Positions 2,420 to 45,392 of a stretch of 47,593 bases of DNA are shown here, piece by piece. Positions within the stretch are counted from its first letter, which is position 1, and the number at the start of each line of letters is the position of its first letter. Both the position numbers and the translations under genes were made by a program. Below the pieces are notes generated by a model, which worked only from the letters and a program-made list of their open reading frames with translations, ran no database searches and was not told the DNA's origin. This DNA comes from Methylococcales bacterium (GTDB taxonomy: Bacteria; Pseudomonadota; Gammaproteobacteria; Methylococcales; Methylomonadaceae), in assembly GCA_026399095.1 (NCBI GenBank), contig JAPLRP010000057.1, positions 1 to 47,593 of the forward strand, given 5' to 3'.

Positions 2420-3919
2420 ATGTCTGAAATACAACAAGATGAACAAGAACAAATCAAGCAGCGCCGCAATAAACTAACTGAGCTGCGTGAAAGTGGCGGC
2501 ATTGCATTTCCTACCGATTTTCGTCGCAATGTGGTTGCAGGTGAACTTTTCGCCGAATATGGCGAAAAGACCAAAGAAGAATTAGAAGGCGAACCTGTCC
2601 GAGTCAAACTGGCTGGCAGGATGATGACCCGTCGTATAATGGGCAAAGCTAGTTTTGCACATATTCAGGATATGTCTGGAAAAATTCAGCTTTATGTCAC
2701 GCGAGACACCTTACCCGAAGGCTTCTATAACGAACAATTTAAAAAATGGGATATTGGTGATATTGTCGGTGCGGAAGGTGTGTTATTTATGACACAGACC
2801 GGCGAACTAAGCGTTAAGGTTGACGATATTCGTCTATTAACTAAAGCCTTGCGCCCTCTGCCAGAAAAATTTCATGGCCTTGCCGATCAGGAAATCAAAT
2901 ACAGGCAACGTTATCTGGATTTGATAATGAGCGAGCATTCACGCTCTACTTTTTTAATTCGTTCAAAGATAGTTGCCTACATACGCCAGTTTTTAATTGA
3001 GCGTCAATTCCTGGAAGTTGAAACTCCGATGATGCAAGTAATTCCAGGAGGAGCAACAGCAAGGCCTTTTACTACCTTTCATAATGCGCTAGATATGGAT
3101 ATGTTTTTACGCATAGCCCCAGAACTCTATTTAAAACGTCTGGTTGTGGGTGGCTTTGAACGAGTATTTGAAATTAACCGTAACTTTCGTAACGAAGGCT
3201 TATCGACTCGTCATAATCCTGAATTTACTATGCTGGAATTTTATCAGGCTTACGCAGAATATCACGATTTAATGGATTTAACCGAAGCCATGCTTCGCGG
3301 AATAGCCATTGAAGTGATGGGGGAAACGGTTGTCACTTATCAAGGTGAGCAATACGATTTTGGTAAGCCGTTTGATCGTATGACGGTAGTTGAATCTATC
3401 CTGCATTTTAATCCTGATTTGACTGCAACTGATCTTAACACCCGTGAAGCCGCTGTCAAAGTTGCTGAAAACTTGCGTATTCCCGTTAAGGAAGGTTACG
3501 GTTTAGGTAAAGTACAAATCGAGATTTTTGAAAAAACGGTAGAAAGCCGCTTAATGAACCCTACCTTCATTACTGCTTATCCGGTTGAAGTATCACCATT
3601 GGCAAGGCGTAATGATGATAATCCTCACGTAACCGATCGTTTTGAGTTTTTTGTCGGTGGCCGGGAAATTGCCAACGGCTTTACAGAGCTTAATGATGCA
3701 GAAGATCAAGCCGCTCGCTTTCAAAAACAAGTGGAAGAAAAAGAAGCAGGTGATGATGAAGCTATGCACTTTGATGCCGATTACATCGTCGCTTTGGAAC
3801 ACGGCATGCCCCCCACCGCTGGCGAAGGCATTGGCATTGATCGCTTGGTGATGTTATTTACCGACGCACCGTCAATTCGTGATGTATTACTGTTTCCACA
3901 CATGCGACCTAAAGGCTAA
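2420..3919 (+). CDS. lysS: Lysyl-tRNA synthetase, class II
   Basis: Charges tRNA-Lys with lysine in the cytoplasm. The 499-residue length fits bacterial LysS. The N-terminal OB-fold anticodon-binding domain covers roughly residues 55-150. The class II catalytic domain follows, with motif 2 visible as [19 protein letters not shown] and motif 3 as [17 protein letters not shown] near the C-terminus. It lies 64 bases after prfB on the same strand, the usual gammaproteobacterial pairing, so co-transcription is likely. No strong Shine-Dalgarno precedes the ATG at 2420. Assignment is secure. Confidence 0.97.
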
Positions 3920-13918: not shown

Positions 13919-14689
13919 TTAAAAATCTTTAACTCCTGCCAGTCGTTTTGCTTCATCTGAAAAAGGAAATTTTTCTACCAACAACTTCTGATATTCTTTT
14001 GCCAACGAGATGTTGCCCAAAGCTCGTTCAGTTTGCATACCAAACCATAAAGTGCCGGCTGTATAATCCGCAACCGACAAGTATCTTTGTAAATAAGCTT
14101 TTGCTGCTAAATATTCACCGTTTTGATAACTTATTGCTTGCATTTCCAATAATGCCGGCGGATAAGCCTCATTAAGCATCAGCGCTTGCTTGAAGTATGA
14201 TTTGGCACTTTGCTTCTGCCCCATAGCATACTGACATCGTCCGGCGTTTGTTAAGGCCAACCATTGCCTGTCATTTAACTGGGTTGAAATAGCCTTAGTC
14301 AGTAAAGCCATTCCTTGCGTATACTCTCCACGATCACATAGAAAGCGGCCATAATTATTCTGTACACTCCAATCATTAGGAGACAATTCCGTGGCTATCT
14401 CATATTGCTCTTTAGCTTGCTTAAAATCATTTAATTTTTCATATAAATAAGCTGCTGCATTATGCACTTGTGTATTATTAGGATCTTTTTTCTGTGCTAG
14501 TTGTAAATTTTCTTTGGCGATTTCCAGCTTACCTAAATCCAAATAGCGCACACCTAATTGTAAATAAATACTGGCAGATTCTTCATTCTTAGTGCCATTT
14601 TCGTTTGTTGAGGCACAAGAAGTTAAAACAATGCCAAAAACCAATCCAACAACAAGGCCTTTAAAAGACCTTAATGTTTCAAGTAACAC
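13919..14689 (-). CDS. pilW: Type IV pilus biogenesis/stability lipoprotein PilW (PilF)
   Basis: 256-residue outer-membrane lipoprotein (lipobox LTSC, Cys25) followed by about six tetratricopeptide repeats, for example [20 protein letters not shown] and [19 protein letters not shown]. The family acts as the pilotin for the secretin PilQ or in pilus stability. The gene lies directly after rlmN in many gammaproteobacteria, as here. The start is a GTG at 14689, overlapping the 3' end of rlmN by 11 bases; this gives a full signal peptide. The symbol pilF is also used for it. The window does not contain other pilus genes. Confidence 0.9.
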
Positions 14690-39868: not shown

Positions 39869-41959
39869 TTAAGATCTTTCATCACTACAAACTAATTGAT
39901 CAACCCTTGGCGGCCAAGCATATGAAAAATCCTCATGATCCAAGGTTAAATTAGGACTATAGGCGGGATCATTGATCAGTAAATCACCCCAGCGTTTTTT
40001 CATAAACAAGACTTCCTCGGTAAAGCGTAACTGCTTTGCTCGGGTATTCTCGGTTCCACGTGAGGCTGACTCATGATGATAAAGCTCTGCATAAGGTGTC
40101 CAGATGTTACGGTAACCCGCTTCCCGAACGCGTAAACAAAAATCGACATCATTAAAGGCTACTTTAAGGTCCGCTTCATTTAAGCCGCCAACTTCATGAT
40201 AGATGCTTTTTTTAATAACTAAACAGGCGCCTGTAACAACAGACATTGTTTGAATAAGCTGTGCCCTGGAAAAAAAGCCAGAAGCACCTTTCTTTAAATG
40301 TTTATGTGAATGACCAGCAATACCACCCACGCCAGTTACTACACCACCATGCTGCAAAGTATCATTGGGATACCAAAGCCTGGCACCTACAGCACCCACA
40401 CCAGACTGAAGAGCCAGGCTCATCAATTCACTTAGCCACTCAGGGGAGATGACTTCAATATCATTATTAATCAACCCAACATAGTCTCCACGCGCTTGCT
40501 GAACAGCCTTATTATTCAAGGCTGAAAAATTAAACGGTGATTCGTCCCTAAGAACCCTAACTTGATCATGACTACTTAGTCTGGCGAAATAATCTAATGT
40601 TTCAGGATCATCCGAATTATTATCAACAATAATAATTTCGTAATTTGTATAAGTAGTTTTGGCAAAAATACTGTCAATGCATTGCTTAATCAACTCCAAA
40701 CCATTACGCGTAGGAATAATCAAACTAACCAAAGGCGTATTATTAGGCATGCTATAACGTGCCCGATACATACCAAAACTTAATAACTCGGCTTGTGCGG
40801 CAACTTTAGTTCGGGAAAAGTGATCATTCAGTGCACGCTCTCCAGCCAACAATGCATAGTTTTTTTCACTGCCTGCATGCGCAGTACTTCCAGGATGGCT
40901 TCGCCAGTGATAAAGCACTCGGGGAATATGTACAATATTTTTATGATCAAGTTGCTCTGAACAACGCAAAGCTAAATCATAGTCCTGCGCCCCCTCTAAA
41001 CCTTCTCTAAAACCACCAAAATTTCTTATTAAATCAGTCCGATAGACACCTAAGTGACAAGCCATATTATGAGAAAGGAAGAGATCAGGATTCCAATCGG
41101 GTTTAAAATAAGGATCAAAACGCAACCCAGAAAGATCTATTTTATCTTCGTCTGAGTAAATTAATCCAACATCCGGATTCGCAACAATCGTCTCTGCAAC
41201 CCAAAACAAAGCCTGCTGCGGCAACAAATCATCATTATCAAGCAGCGCAACAAACTCGCCTTTGGCTAACGCCAGTGCCGAATTAGAAGCGGCAGAAATA
41301 TGCCCGTTTTCTTTCCTAAACACCACTTTAATACGGCAATCAGCCTCTATATAACGCTTTAGCAACTCATGCACTTCAACATTTGTGGAAGCGTCGTCGG
41401 CAATGCATAATTCCCAGTTTGGGTATAACTGGCTTTGCACTGATAAAATAGCCTCCTCAAGCATATCCAAAGGCGGATTATAAACCGGCATGACAATTGA
41501 AATAAGAGGTAACCGGTCTAACTGCTTAATGCGATTTTCAATTGCTTTAATATCCAGATCGTTTAACGTATCGTAACGACGCACCCACTCCGTATAATCA
41601 GTGCGATTATTTTTCTCATACCTTTCCACTGGCGTTGATGCGCCGGGTGCAGCTGAAAAAATCACCCGCCGTTTGATCCCATGAATACCCTCAGAGCGAA
41701 ATGTACGCCACATGTTCTTGGTTAAACCGCTATAACCACCAGACATTGCCACTGCATAAGGTAACCCTCTTAAAATTAACTTGGCTCTTAATACCTGATG
41801 ACCAATCAGTCTAACCGGATGCATTAAGCGCCACATTGTTGCTTGATGAATCTCAGTTGAAACTGATTTTTGATTTCCGGTAGAACCTTCTGGTTCACTG
41901 ACTAATTGATCAAGTTGACTAACCGCCGACCTTAACTCGTTACCTTCAAAATCATCCAA
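39869..41959 (-). CDS. Two-domain GT2 glycosyltransferase
   Basis: About 696 residues with two GT2 catalytic domains. The first (about residues 150-380) has ISIVMPVYNPPLDMLEEAI, DDAST and LLDNDDLLPQQAL; the second (about residues 420-650) has SLIIPTRNGLELIKQCIDSI, VDNNSDD and LINNDIEVISPEWL. Such enzymes extend a glycan by two different linkages. An N-terminal module of about 140 residues contains MWRLMHPVRLIGHQVLR, which recurs at the C-terminus of the divergent GT4 at 42408. Start choice: a TTG at 41959 has AGGAG 7 bases upstream and is better than the TTG at 41983. It is the first gene of the minus-strand glycan cluster. Confidence 0.85.
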   Translation of the reverse strand: MDDFEGNELRSAVSQLDQLVSEPEGSTGNQKSVSTEIHQATMWRLMHPVRLIGHQVLRAKLILRGLPYAVAMSGGYSGLTKNMWRTFRSEGIHGIKRRVIFSAAPGASTPVERYEKNNRTDYTEWVRRYDTLNDLDIKAIENRIKQLDRLPLISIVMPVYNPPLDMLEEAILSVQSQLYPNWELCIADDASTNVEVHELLKRYIEADCRIKVVFRKENGHISAASNSALALAKGEFVALLDNDDLLPQQALFWVAETIVANPDVGLIYSDEDKIDLSGLRFDPYFKPDWNPDLFLSHNMACHLGVYRTDLIRNFGGFREGLEGAQDYDLALRCSEQLDHKNIVHIPRVLYHWRSHPGSTAHAGSEKNYALLAGERALNDHFSRTKVAAQAELLSFGMYRARYSMPNNTPLVSLIIPTRNGLELIKQCIDSIFAKTTYTNYEIIIVDNNSDDPETLDYFARLSSHDQVRVLRDESPFNFSALNNKAVQQARGDYVGLINNDIEVISPEWLSELMSLALQSGVGAVGARLWYPNDTLQHGGVVTGVGGIAGHSHKHLKKGASGFFSRAQLIQTMSVVTGACLVIKKSIYHEVGGLNEADLKVAFNDVDFCLRVREAGYRNIWTPYAELYHHESASRGTENTRAKQLRFTEEVLFMKKRWGDLLINDPAYSPNLTLDHEDFSYAWPPRVDQLVCSDERS

Positions 41960-42407
41960 TGGTCTACTCCTAAAATTTAACAATCTCTGTTTTTCAGATG
42001 AGTTAGGCTCAAGCCAAGCTCTTTGCGATCGTATAACCAGTTTAAAAATGTAGTTTTATCATACATTATGCCATGATTGAATAGGTATATCGATTTAAGC
42101 GCTAACAAGCCAATATAAAATGCTGTGTCTGGCGTCAACTATTTTTGACGTTTAAGATCACACACCTTTAATTACTTAAACACAACGCCTGCGTAATACG
42201 AGGCGTATGGACAAATATTTAAACGGACTTTAATCAACTCGTTAAACCGCTGTTACTGAGAACCTCTTTGACCTCTTGTTGTTTTTGAAGTCTATATTTT
42301 TTTGGTTTCTCAACAGAAACACACACCTGAGATTAAAATTTAGGTTAGAGTAACTCAATTATTAAGGGTTTTCTTTTTCAATACCTCGCCAAAATTATCC
42401 AATTTAC
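41960..42407. other. Divergent intergenic region of the glycan cluster
   Basis: About 450 bases between two divergent glycosyltransferase genes, AT-rich, with no gene. Two small dyads are visible: CGTCAA-CTATTT-TTGACG (42133-42150) and ACGCCT-10 bases-AGGCGT (42185-42206). They may be regulator sites or hairpins in leader RNAs. No convincing -10/-35 pair was found for either direction. Confidence 0.45.
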
Positions 42408-43964
42408 ATGAATATATTGTTTGTTCTTTATGGGGATTTCACGACTAATAGTGCAGTCCATTTAACGCTTCATGCACGTGAACTAAATAGGTGTGGCCAC
42501 AGTTGTGCTGTAGCGGTTCCAAGTAACTTGGACACTATCACTCAGTGCCATGATGTTTTCTTTAGACCCGTTCTTTATACTGATGCGTTGATTGCCCCTG
42601 ATTCGATATTTCCTGATGGCCGGCCTGCTGATATTATCCATGCCTGGACGCCTCGTGAGAATGTAAGAAACTTTGTTACTGCTTATATGGCAAAACATCC
42701 AACCCCTTTAGTTGTTTATCTTGAAGATCATGAGTCTTGGATTTCTGGTCGAGCGTTAGGTTATGATGAAGTTACCTTGGCTCAACAAACCGAACAAAGC
42801 ATTTCAGATCGTCTTCCAGATGCATTGTCACATCCTTTTCGTTATGACAGCTTTATTGGTTTGGCAGATGCCGTGATACTTATTCAAGATAAATTAAAGG
42901 TAGGCGTACCCTCTTGGGTTTACTGCGCAACGGTAATGCCAAGCGTTGATCTTGATTTTTTTTCTCCTAGAGCGGCAAATGCTCTATTAAGAAAACAATA
43001 TAGCGTTGCAGACAATGAACGAGTGATTGTTTATCCGGGTGGCTTAAATGGTTTTACCCAACCGGCTATTGAAACATTATGTCGAGCAGTCGGGCTTATT
43101 AATAGCCAAGGTTTTCCGTGTCGATTATTGCGTACAGGGCCCTTTGCCTTGGATTTTCTTGAACAACTACCGCCTGAGACCGCTGCCGTTATTAATGATC
43201 TTGGCGTGCTTCCCAGAAGTGAACTACCTGATCTCCTTGCGTTAGCCGATGTTTTTGTTCAACCCGGTAAAATCGATCCCTTTGAAGACTTGAGGTTACC
43301 GGGTAAATTACCTGAACTTTTGGCAATGGGTCGCCCTGTCATTATGCCTGACGTAAATATTGCCCATTTGTTCAAGGATGGTATCGATGTAGTTTTAACC
43401 CAAACGGGAAGTGCAGAAGAGATTGCTGAAAAATGTGTAGCGCTGTTTTCTGATCCGCAGCAAGCTGAAAACATAGGAAAAGCAGGCCGTTTGTTTGCTG
43501 AAAGCTATTTTGAAATAAAAACCCAAGCCGAGAAACTGGTAAACGTTTATAAAATTGCTTGTGAAAATTTTAATCCTGTAATCGCCAAAGAAATATGGCA
43601 AATAGCTGATAAAAATACCCCAGTTACCTTATTACTGGCCCGTAAATTAAAGTTGTTGGCCGATACCAATCTATGTGTTGAAGCGCCTAAAATAATGAAA
43701 CAACATGCTAACTATATCGAATTAATACAACAGCGTATTAGTGGACTGGAAATTACCATAACCGGCTTGACTCAAGTTGTAGCAGAGCGAGATGAACAAA
43801 TAACCAATCTTAATAGAGAAGTTGCAGTGCGTGATGAGAAAATTTCACGTCTTAATGGGGTAATAGACGAAACACTTGGATCAACCAGTTGGCGGTTAAC
43901 ACGCCCGGTTAGATATGTGGGGCATCAATTATTAAAAATGAAAACACGATCTGATAAAATTTAA
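42408..43964 (+). CDS. GT4 glycosyltransferase with C-terminal coiled coil
   Basis: 518 residues. The GT-B domain occupies about residues 1-385, with VIVYPGGLNGFTQPAIETLCRAV and DLLALADVFVQPGKIDPFEDLRLPGKLPELLAMGRPVI; the conserved glutamates of the GT4 EX7E region are in the DPFEDLRLPGKLPELLAMG stretch. A helical region follows, then a coiled coil at about residues 430-480 with internal repeats AERDEQITNLN and VRDEKISRLN. It ends with TSWRLTRPVRYVGHQLLK. This last module recurs near the N-terminus of the divergent two-domain GT2. Nothing follows for 740 bases, so it is a single gene. The sugar and acceptor are unknown. Confidence 0.85.
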   Translation: MNILFVLYGDFTTNSAVHLTLHARELNRCGHSCAVAVPSNLDTITQCHDVFFRPVLYTDALIAPDSIFPDGRPADIIHAWTPRENVRNFVTAYMAKHPTPLVVYLEDHESWISGRALGYDEVTLAQQTEQSISDRLPDALSHPFRYDSFIGLADAVILIQDKLKVGVPSWVYCATVMPSVDLDFFSPRAANALLRKQYSVADNERVIVYPGGLNGFTQPAIETLCRAVGLINSQGFPCRLLRTGPFALDFLEQLPPETAAVINDLGVLPRSELPDLLALADVFVQPGKIDPFEDLRLPGKLPELLAMGRPVIMPDVNIAHLFKDGIDVVLTQTGSAEEIAEKCVALFSDPQQAENIGKAGRLFAESYFEIKTQAEKLVNVYKIACENFNPVIAKEIWQIADKNTPVTLLLARKLKLLADTNLCVEAPKIMKQHANYIELIQQRISGLEITITGLTQVVAERDEQITNLNREVAVRDEKISRLNGVIDETLGSTSWRLTRPVRYVGHQLLKMKTRSDKI

Positions 43965-44278
43965 TCGCAACCATTACTATCCTGCCAACGGTCAGCGTGA
44001 TTGCAAATGACCAGACCATAAAATGAACCCTGCGCAAAGTCAAACGATCAAAACATTTGACTGTTTCGACTTGCATTTGCTCAAAACGCTTATTTATTGA
44101 CTCAAGAACAAAATTAGCGTATAAGCATAGAAAATTACTTTTGTGTGATGTAGCATTAACAATTTAATAAGCTTGCGGTCGCCTGTCTTGCTGTTTTGGT
44201 AATAATATTGGCCGTTAGATTGCAACACATTGTTTATACATAAACATTTAACGGTTTACAGCCTTTAATATGGACATA
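43965..44278 (+). other. Intergenic region upstream of the 21-base repeat array
   Basis: About 315 bases without a gene, following the GT4 gene. A 16-base dyad TGTTTAT-AC-ATAAACA lies at 44231-44246 and may be a regulator site. No terminator with a T-run was found after the GT4 gene, and no RNA gene was recognised. Confidence 0.4.
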
Positions 44279-44590
44279 CAAAGCACTTAGAGCAAAAAGC
44301 ATCATTAAGTACCCCTCCTCAATCGTTAGGGAGCAATGATCAGTGCCTAAGGAGCGATCCTCAGCCTTCAAGGCAACGACTCAATTGCCTGGGAGTGCTC
44401 CGCAGTTAGTCGGGATCAATCATTAATGGATCAGGTGCACTGAGCAGACATCAATGCGACCCCTCAACCATTAAGGAGCACTGCTTGAAGACCCAAGAGC
44501 ACTGCTCAACCACTGAGTAGCCTTGATTAGCCATTAAGTAATACGCCTTAGCCCTTGCTAAGTGCGGCTTAATAGCTACGGCGCATTGAC
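44279..44590. repeat. Degenerate tandem array with 20-21-base period (about 15 units)
   Basis: Successive units begin at 44279, 44300, 44320, 44341, 44362, 44382, 44403, 44424, 44445, 44465, 44486, 44507, 44528, 44549 and 44570. Apart from three 20-base units (44300, 44362, 44445), each is exactly 21 bases. The consensus is close to CAACCATTAAGGAGCACTGCT: bases 1-3 are pyrimidine, A (G in one unit), purine, base 8 is mostly T, bases 10-15 are close to RGGAGC, and base 18 is mostly T. Units differ a lot, so the array is old or under relaxed selection. It lies upstream of a broken gene on the plus strand. It is not a CRISPR: there are no conserved repeats with unique spacers. Confidence 0.75.
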
Positions 44591-44634
44591 CTTTCAATGC
44601 GCAAACCGGCTTATATTATCAAAATAAACCGGTT
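44581..44634. repeat. Two hairpins between the repeat array and the broken gene
   Basis: GCGCATTGA (44581-44589) and TCAATGCGC (44594-44602) are a perfect 9-bp stem with the loop CCTT. Then AACCGG (44604-44609) pairs with CCGGTT (44629-44634) around an AT-rich 19-base loop. No T-run follows. They could be the end of a structured RNA formed with the array, or a processing signal for the following mRNA. Confidence 0.6.
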
Positions 44635-44703
44635 AAATAGTGTGTAAAGAAGATTAATTCGACTTTATGAGTTATTTAAACAACCCTTAGGAGTAACATT
44701 ATT

Positions 44704-45392
44704 ATGACTACTTCATCTTTTATGCCAAAAACCGATGATGGCAAAGCCAATCTACTAGAACATCTCGTTGCCATCTTACCTAAATATGCAACACTTTTAG
44801 ACATCAGCACCCGAGATTTTGACGAACTAAAAGCAGATTCACTATCCTTTCGGCATTCATTACATACCATGGGGATTACGCAAGCGTCCTCGCAATCATG
44901 GACCAACGCTAAAAACGTATTACGTGATGGCGGTTTAGGTAGTGCCGATTGGCCGGAAATGTCCACCTTGCCAGCCCCATCCCACCCATAGTCAAGCCCG
45001 GCATTATATCCAGGTTATCTGCCTTGGCCGCTCGGATTAAAGCCCATAGAAACTATACTGACACCATCGGCATAGAGCTATGGCTGGTCGTTGGCGAACA
45101 AAAAATCGATCTCACCACCTAGAAACCAGTCTTAAGTATTTTCTTACAAGCTGGACATCCTGTTATTACTTGGACTAAAGGCCGTGTCGGTGCCATAGAA
45201 ATTTGGGCAGACAGAATGGATGGTAACAATTTTATATTATTGGCCACCGATACAGAGCCCTATACCAATGACAACACACCCTTACCCGCCTCAGGTAGTG
45301 GGGCAGTATGGAAATACAAAGCCATTTACCGATTACATGATGCACCTGTTGGACACTGGAGCGATGTCATTAGTATTGCCGTTGGCGTGTAG
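44704..45392 (+). pseudogene. Broken gene of an unrecognised family (frameshift plus in-frame stop)
   Basis: The first frame runs from ATG 44704 (TTAGGAG upstream) to TAG 44989-44991: 95 residues beginning TTSSFMPKTDDGKANLLEH, with LPKYATLLDI and a helical look. The coding pattern then continues in the next frame (codons starting at 44985) to TAG 45390-45392, reading IISRLSALAARIKAHRNYTD, VITWTKGRVGAIEIWADRMD and AVWKYKAIYRLHDAPVGHW. That is a plausible C-terminal beta domain ending in SDVISIAVGV. A single-base deletion near 44985 explains the shift. An in-frame TAG at 45120-45122 is a second lesion. The intact protein would be about 229 residues. I cannot name the family. The fibronectin-like C-terminus is an impression only. 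Confidence 0.7.

Follow-up and report, generated by a model that had tools for sequence, protein, structure and literature searches.

The window array and its neighbourhood

The window, that is, the whole 47,593-nt stretch of DNA that was analysed, carries a tandem array in front of a broken gene belonging to a family of ∼229-aa proteins. On the array side of the window lie glycosyltransferase genes, one of group-1 type (42408-43964) and others with family-2 domains (39869-41983). The features of the locus are as follows.

44246-44300, plus strand: left flank common to the window array and its second copy (locus L002 on contig C10), from pairwise alignment, left limit by eye
44301-44589, no strand assigned: pseudo-palindromic array of about 14 (13.8) units of 21 bp, two of them of 20 bp, from indel-tolerant wraparound fitting
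44564-44584, no strand assigned: last full in-register unit, inside a 60-nt block 78% identical to C10:56900-56959
44604-44634, plus strand: 14-nt inverted repeat between array and gene, arms 86% complementary and 3 nt apart
44687-44694, plus strand: CTTAGGAG, by eye a plausible ribosome-binding site for the 44704 gene
44704-44991, plus strand: first intact piece of the broken gene of the ∼229-aa family (44704-45000 cover family residues 1-99)
44958-45392, plus strand: remainder of the broken gene, read in a different frame and interrupted by one internal stop (44958-45386 cover family residues 86-228)

The earlier note had described a tandem array with a period of about 21 bases, which was confirmed. 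Across 44279-44590, identity at lag 21 was 0.423, a value matched by none of 2,000 dinucleotide shuffles, whether at this lag or elsewhere between lags 8 and 59. When the whole window was scanned (312-nt segments, 30-nt step), the top five scores all fell on the array, with position 14341 tying for fifth. The array region is absent from the output of Tandem Repeats Finder at score 30, presumably because its units are too diverged. A second raised lag-21 signal (0.39-0.40) was seen at 14311-14652, over or beside minus-strand ORFs.

Fitting retained the 21-base spacing of the original description but placed the boundaries at 44301 and 44589, and yielded two units of 20 bases where three had been counted. 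In-register units start, for example, at 44314 (CCTCCTCAATCGTTAGGGAGC), 44459 (ACCCCTCAACCATTAAGGAGC), and 44501 (ACTGCTCAACCACTGAGTAGC). Each unit consists of a left arm CTCCTCAA, a central base, and a right arm TTAAGGAGC (also written TTAAGGAG), and the dyad symmetry of the array was significant against column permutation (p = 0.007). The column of CAA, CAG, TAA, or TAG triplets pointed out previously is present, but it constitutes the left arm of the pseudo-palindrome rather than a row of codons. Likewise, the AAGGAG- and GGGAGC-like cores exist, but as the right arm; their interpretation as Shine-Dalgarno sites was not supported, the AGGAG core giving way to different sequence in arrays whose period is unchanged. 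Each of the six reading frames of the window array contains 5-12 stops.

Further copies were found in the window's genome. That on contig C10 has the same left flank, an array, and a fragment of the same family gene. It measures about 550 bp and is flanked on both sides by a copy, in direct orientation, of the 3′ end of the preceding gene (L002 1257-1338 and 1893-1965), a gene that we take to be holA-like; the arrangement looks as if an insertion had occurred with a long duplication. Contig C32 carries an intact copy of the family gene with an array. On contig C27, a further gene copy is preceded by 63/21-bp periodicity (z 7.5 and 6.4), the array fit being modest (score 115, with 13 of 300 control blocks reaching 100). 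The broken gene copies on C84 and C8 have no array within the 359 and 205 nt available upstream, respectively, and C87 carries a solo array. As the gene in the window is broken, the window copy is probably in decay.

The ∼229-aa family is predicted to combine a helical N-terminal domain with an Fn3-like C-terminal domain of ∼85 residues (AlphaFold2, mean pLDDT 90, pTM 0.55; Foldseek). The Foldseek matches listed were Fn3-type domains of many kinds, with no DNA-binding fold among them. Pfam and NCBIfam gave no match above the curated cut-off (the best, to ZapB, had E 0.0032 and concerned the divergent homologue L065), PHROGs none below E 0.08, and a sequence search of the PDB no relative below E 0.03. 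A transposase or nuclease domain was absent from the family according to Pfam, NCBIfam, PHROGs, and Foldseek, and PADLOC, used to check for a role in defence, returned no match for three family proteins. The N-terminal domain was acidic or neutral in the five proteins counted; residues 100-130 are basic. No local segment that could specify the array class was found in the protein; array class tracks whole-protein identity. The protein alignment comprised 54 of the 72 full-length proteins from genome contigs plus three others.

Members of the family are present in 27 of 35 genus genomes, the window's own included. Among the best 80 of 158 relatives, hosts according to record titles include Methylococcaceae, Gallionellales, Zoogloea, Verrucomicrobia, and others; L069 (KS41) is the same locus as L047. 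A protein profile search of 398 phylum genomes recovered the family in one, the window's own, and the family is therefore patchy. A phage or plasmid origin was considered and rejected, with no relative confirmed in viral contigs, no phage match for the L069 protein, and no plasmid match for the L133 protein. Near the array-plus-gene locus L133 of Zoogloea dura lies a gene for a PD-(D/E)XK nuclease family transposase (3004-3468).

Arrays upstream of homologous genes

Whether arrays recur beside homologues of the 44704 gene had been set beforehand as a test, and they do so. Upstream sequence sufficed for analysis at 71 loci, and at 56 of these the upstream block showed an autocorrelation of z at least 5, exclusively at lags of 21 (31 blocks), 42 (23), and 63 (2). 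Of the other blocks of the same loci, 46 of 802 reached z of at least 5, at mixed lags, six of them at multiples of 21. Counted by protein cluster, arrays were found in 42 of 53 (90% identity), 14 of 16 (70%), and 5 of 6 (60%), other lags in none. Because arrays recur beside homologues, both outcomes that the earlier note had named as contradicting it, namely, a lack of similar arrays in relatives and an autocorrelation common in shuffled DNA, can be set aside.

An array of 21-bp units could be fitted with a score of at least 100 to 63 of 82 stretches upstream of the gene, a set that contains near-identical orthologs, and, with a near-identical fitter, to 13 of 300 random control blocks. The fit required no indel in 27 of the 63; the 19 arrays scoring below 100 were excluded from the symmetry tests. 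Arrays consist of about 8-27 head-to-tail units in non-coding DNA, and their gene-proximal end usually lies 30-400 bp before the start codon. In a second subfamily (L166-L190), an array with a period of a multiple of 21 (z at least 5) was present in 18 of 25 upstream stretches, the units often being 42 bp long (L181, L183, L186, and L189) or near-palindromic and 21 bp long (L176 and L182). Exceptions within this subfamily were L167, with a period of 43 bp, and L177, with one of 15; L171, L175, L184, L187, and L190 had no array upstream. Periods strongly favour multiples of two helical turns irrespective of how the units read, which suggests that the constraint acts on the DNA helix.

Two observations concern individual upstream regions. 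The divergent homologue L063 (genome G010) is preceded by near-identical tandem repeats of 57 bp, which is not a multiple of 21. In the second subfamily (e.g., L181, L184, and L189), a promoter-like pair of the TTGCTT-N17-CATTAT type was noticed by eye before the start codon, 3′ of the array where one is present.

Dyad symmetry beyond that of column permutation (p < 0.05) was found in 41 of the 63 arrays, that of the window included, where about three would be expected; the remaining 22 were not significantly palindromic. When arrays were grouped into 26 clusters (similarity cut-off 0.75) and aligned by their symmetry axis alone, a common consensus emerged, RYYCCGCAAYCATTGCKRRRC. Its relative entropy was 3.60, compared with 0.68 ± 0.14 for random rotation and 0.90 ± 0.14 for symmetric permutation (p < 0.0005); a looser cut into 15 clusters gave 3.41 versus 1.33 and 1.53, respectively. 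The polarity of the central base is fixed relative to the gene (C 0.56 versus G 0.16), which a symmetric dimer would not need and which points to common descent. The array alignment comprised 54 of 56 segments, all taken from arrays that passed a cut-off for symmetry.

A sequence-only model of six units, R1, was built without the window array. Its best match in the window's genome was nonetheless that array (44460-44562, E 5e-5), matched on both strands. Of 16 sources given to R1, 12 yielded arrays; L033, L095, L101, and L122 were missed at E ≤ 1. A strict core-pair pattern applied to 299 phylum genomes gave one match each in four of them, without a family gene (HMM) or a 21-bp array nearby. 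A class pattern allowing three mismatches was applied to 12 genomes; its matches fell within known arrays in G020 (6 of 7), G018 (3 of 4), G002 (8 of 10), and G025 (1 of 3), and in the remaining eight genomes it found scattered single sites. An alternation of constant and variable segments as in CRISPR was absent from the arrays inspected, in which units abut and variation is spread over the columns. By eye, a recurring deviant unit, a run of T followed by a GCTAACGATT-like stretch, was seen in the arrays of L062, L085, L093, L067, L235, and L238.

The earlier note had also raised the notion that the array is a decayed gene for a heptapeptide-repeat protein. Some arrays are indeed open in a forward frame, and open frames are commoner in the forward than in the reverse direction (33 versus 12), with 830 stops in forward and 1,109 in reverse frames; base composition yields, by our own arithmetic, a ratio near 1.17 and so explains the observed 1.34 only partly. 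However, 39 of the 63 arrays, mostly neighbours of intact genes, are closed by stops in every one of the six frames, and 1-bp indels occur in 36 of the 63, again mostly beside intact genes. In the 25 arrays with an open forward frame, entropy at the three codon positions was 1.07, 0.91, and 0.95, position 3 being the most variable in 9 of 25. A coding array is made unlikely by the six-frame stops, the lack of a third-position excess, and the indels, with the forward/reverse asymmetry of stops as a contrary sign; the decayed repeat gene retains a barely appreciable probability.

Inverted repeats in many units, together with the polarity fixed relative to the gene, would also fit a structured RNA or a small non-coding RNA composed of 21-nt hairpins. 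Such an RNA should leave a trace in the pairing of the arms, which was assessed with symmetry axes chosen from column frequencies only. Watson-Crick cells within units numbered 3,460 of 7,293, compared with 3,460.3 in column shuffles (covariation z about 0), G-T pairs 765 versus 764.6 expected, and A-C pairs 875 versus 851. If the axis was chosen on the same data, which biases the outcome, z was +5.3 for the best axis and −5.9 for the second. Rfam gave no match at the gathering score in the window or in L002. As covariation vanishes once the axis comes from column frequencies alone, the RNA reading was set low, and we regard it as very improbable. The absence of compensatory pairing and of a G-U excess over these pairs favours DNA palindromes over RNA hairpins.

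Averaged over the whole array, substitution was about equal to that in flanking DNA and not clearly slower, so that the arrays cannot be regarded as simply frozen. Change was rarer in columns conserved in a third related array than in others, 300 of 2,335 (12.8%) versus 449 of 2,645 (17.0%); the associated p of 5e-5 is optimistic because the 16 pairs overlap, the trios were chosen by hand with a third array that is not always an ortholog, and 5 of the 16 pairs ran in the opposite direction. A variant in which columns were ranked on one of the compared arrays gave 1,459 of 7,429 versus 2,225 of 8,317 and is partly circular. The slower change at conserved columns is, as far as such comparisons carry, a sign of moderate purifying selection.

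These data bear on whether the arrays are neutral minisatellites, generated by slippage and unequal exchange and situated before the gene by chance, without function. The flank-like substitution rates, the high divergence of units, the drift of unit class with protein divergence, and the many solo arrays without a cognate gene in their own genome (see below) would all be in keeping with this. What such a process leaves unaccounted for is the restriction to lags of 21, 42, and 63 in the 71-locus set, in spite of the exceptions L167 (43) and L063 (57) in the second subfamily, as well as the dyad symmetry, the consensus across phyla, and the slower change at conserved columns. We therefore consider neutral minisatellites an improbable explanation.

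Solo arrays, unit classes, and copying

R1 (E ≤ 0.1) matched 26 of the 35 genus genomes, 23 of the 27 with the family gene and 3 of the 8 without (Fisher p 0.015); the eight lacking it have a lower average completeness, and one of the three matched (G001) did not fit as an array. Many matches are distant from the gene. From the matches listed for R1, 33 loci were chosen for having no known family gene nearby, and 30 of these solo loci fit an array with a score of at least 100. Hmmsearch (E ≤ 0.01) for the family gene found it at none of the 33. Short remnants of the family gene were recognized by blastn beside three solo arrays (L237, L240, and L229), and the site of a solo array in G020 and G018 is occupied by gene plus array in G025; some solo arrays are, by this context, relics of gene copies. 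Solo arrays sit between main ORFs, up- or downstream of unrelated genes, so that a pure promoter role cannot be general.

For 22 of the 30 solo arrays, a gene-linked unit class of the genus was matched (similarity at least 0.85), and eight match none. A match to a gene-linked array of the own genome (at least 0.8) was obtained for 12 of 27, and the own genome provided the best match for 8 of 27. Own-genome pairs at 0.8 or above include L249-L045, L231/L232-L151, L248-L157, L243-L044, L247-L149, L229/L235/L236-L062, L237-L055, L240-L160, and L241-L053. With an own-genome match in only 12 of 27, a role of solo arrays as unlinked targets appears weak, although 46 of the 58 gene-linked arrays were kept for class comparison (score at least 100), and the partner of some solo arrays may simply be among those left out, as is L067 in G030. 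Gene-linked arrays sharing a genome mostly differ from each other, 29 of 39 pairs being below 0.5, five between 0.5 and 0.8, and five at 0.8 or above (three of them in G017). Over all array pairs, mean similarity was 0.446 within and 0.406 between genomes (permutation p 0.02). Unit classes thus belong to gene lineages throughout the genus rather than to single genomes.

Similarity between some arrays at different loci stops with the array or close to its limits. L238 is 90.6% identical over 427 bp to the array about 1 kb before the L067 gene, homology ending at the array edges, and between L235 and L062 identity is 83% over 381 bp, with the match stopping at these edges or close to them. For the array at the site in G025 orthologous to L235, identity is 65%, compared with 87-89% in the flanks. 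L229 shares 77% identity with L062 and 68% with its G025 counterpart, L236 shares 73% with L062 (both in G020) in an alignment spanning 90 bp only, and L231 and L232 are 92.8% identical over 567 bp, extending about 125 bp past one array edge. These alignments show that some arrays were copied or converted between loci. At the edges of three copied pairs, neither a target duplication nor a terminal inverted repeat was seen by eye.

The orthologous intergenic site before a gene of 634 aa (L293, L294, L295, L292, and L235) has variable content. It is nearly empty in G016, contains gene and array in G025, and a solo array with other repeats in G020 and G018. G002 and G024 carry another kind of insert there, for which reason the site offers no clean insertion boundary. 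A multi-copy dispersed repeat of the genus occupies about 2342-2608 of L235, a piece of about 37-39 nt being 95% identical in several genomes.

The copying evidence raises the prospect of a mobile cassette of the REP/RAYT type, in which the array would be a mobile or non-autonomous unit, the gene-linked copy its parent, and the agent that spreads or converts arrays either the ∼229-aa protein or a recombinase of the host. Consistent with it are the copying itself (L238/L067, L235/L062, and L231/L232), the two G020 solo arrays that are closer to their own gene-linked array (77-83%) than to the orthologous sites of G025 (65-68%), and the gene remnants at L237, L240, and L229. Furthermore, among 20 flanking proteins scanned from 10 loci, one, by L133, was a PDDEXK-type transposase. 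On the other hand, the family itself has no transposase or nuclease domain, three copied pairs lack, by eye, a target duplication or terminal inverted repeats, and much of the pattern is explained by gene loss or by conversion among paralogous arrays. Such a cassette is an unlikely explanation, if one to be taken seriously.

A candidate row of dimer-binding sites and its relation to known systems

The arrays are best described as rows of candidate dimer-binding sites, phased at two helical turns and travelling with the ∼229-aa gene family. Given period, symmetry, and consensus, we assign this description an even chance of being correct. Palindromic units, phasing at two turns, conservation by column and not by pair, a place upstream of a gene, and classes that track gene lineages are together what one would expect of such a row. 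The array of the window, together with the arrays of homologues in very different bacteria, suggests a hitherto undescribed docking strip for a putative DNA-binding protein. According to this description, a dimeric DNA-binding protein would occupy each 21-bp unit. As 21 bp correspond to two turns of the helix, the dimers would be aligned on one face of the DNA and would assemble into a co-operative nucleoprotein stretch by which the neighbouring gene is controlled or marked. The ∼229-aa protein is tied to the arrays by position and lineage; the binder may be this product of the gene itself or another protein. Unit classes differ between gene lineages, and stand-alone arrays of these classes may be what is left after a gene copy was lost, or additional sites for the same protein.

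A more specific version, which we put forward tentatively and consider rather doubtful as a whole, would join an orphan helical-Fn3 protein to a co-inherited, copyable phased array, with lineage-specific recognition at home and, where they persist, at solo arrays, long co-operative stretches, and spread or homogenization of the cassette.

From methanotrophs to Verrucomicrobia, the two-turn period persists while the unit sequence drifts almost beyond recognition. The arrays therefore amount to a natural experiment on the separate constraints acting on the spacing, the symmetry, and the sequence of sites. Were binding to be confirmed, related protein-DNA pairs would be available as a ready-made set in the array classes of the different gene lineages, and an unannotated protein family would gain a function. 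Beyond this case, a diverged array that Tandem Repeats Finder does not list can still be part of a conserved element.

The earlier note knew of no named element of this form, and no published description of one was found in the literature searched, the coverage of which was partial and included few subscription journals. Individual properties are shared with several known systems. With fibronectin type III proteins, the ∼229-aa family shares the predicted Fn3-like fold of its C-terminal domain, and it differs from them by the predicted helical domain at the N terminus.

In REP/REPIN-RAYT systems, a gene is tied to its own class of palindromic repeats, of which further ones are dispersed in the genome (PMC3116915). 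RAYT is a putative transposase, and REPs are usually abundant, with more than 100 copies per genome (PMC2817692). The relation of a gene to dispersed repeats resembles that seen here. In contrast, the present arrays are phased at 21 bp, few were detected per genome, and the linked gene has no transposase domain, of the Y1/IS200-like kind or any other. A repeat class is shared with a gene copy of the same genome by 12 of 27 solo arrays (at least 0.8) and with one somewhere in the genus by 22 of 30 (at least 0.85).

Centromeres of the sopC or iteron type are likewise built of tandem inverted-repeat units. That of the F plasmid has twelve 43-bp repeats and, in each of them, an inverted repeat to which a dimer binds (PMC9178275); 43 bp is close to the 42-bp units found here. 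This architectural parallel, and the occurrence of several arrays of one class in some genomes, would agree with a site for partition or nucleoid anchoring, that is, a chromosomal centromere-like array served by an adapter protein. sopC, however, lies downstream of the genes of a plasmid partition operon with ParA, whereas the arrays reside on chromosomal-type contigs, with several classes per genome. Among the 20 flanking proteins from 10 loci, no partition ATPase or replication initiator was found, ParA-, ParM-, and TubZ-like neighbours being absent, and one family protein had no match in a plasmid collection. An anchoring site is accordingly quite improbable. The arrays fail a defining feature of RAYT/REP systems and of centromeres alike.

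The operator of ArgR provides a third comparison. It contains 18-bp semi-palindromic ARG boxes 3 bp apart, that is, one box per 21 bp (PMC6640053). There are two such boxes, compared with about 8-27 units in the arrays, the repressor is a known hexamer, and the operator is not coupled to the ∼229-aa family. What both have in common is the two-turn spacing of palindromes near promoters, a likeness of spacing and symmetry.
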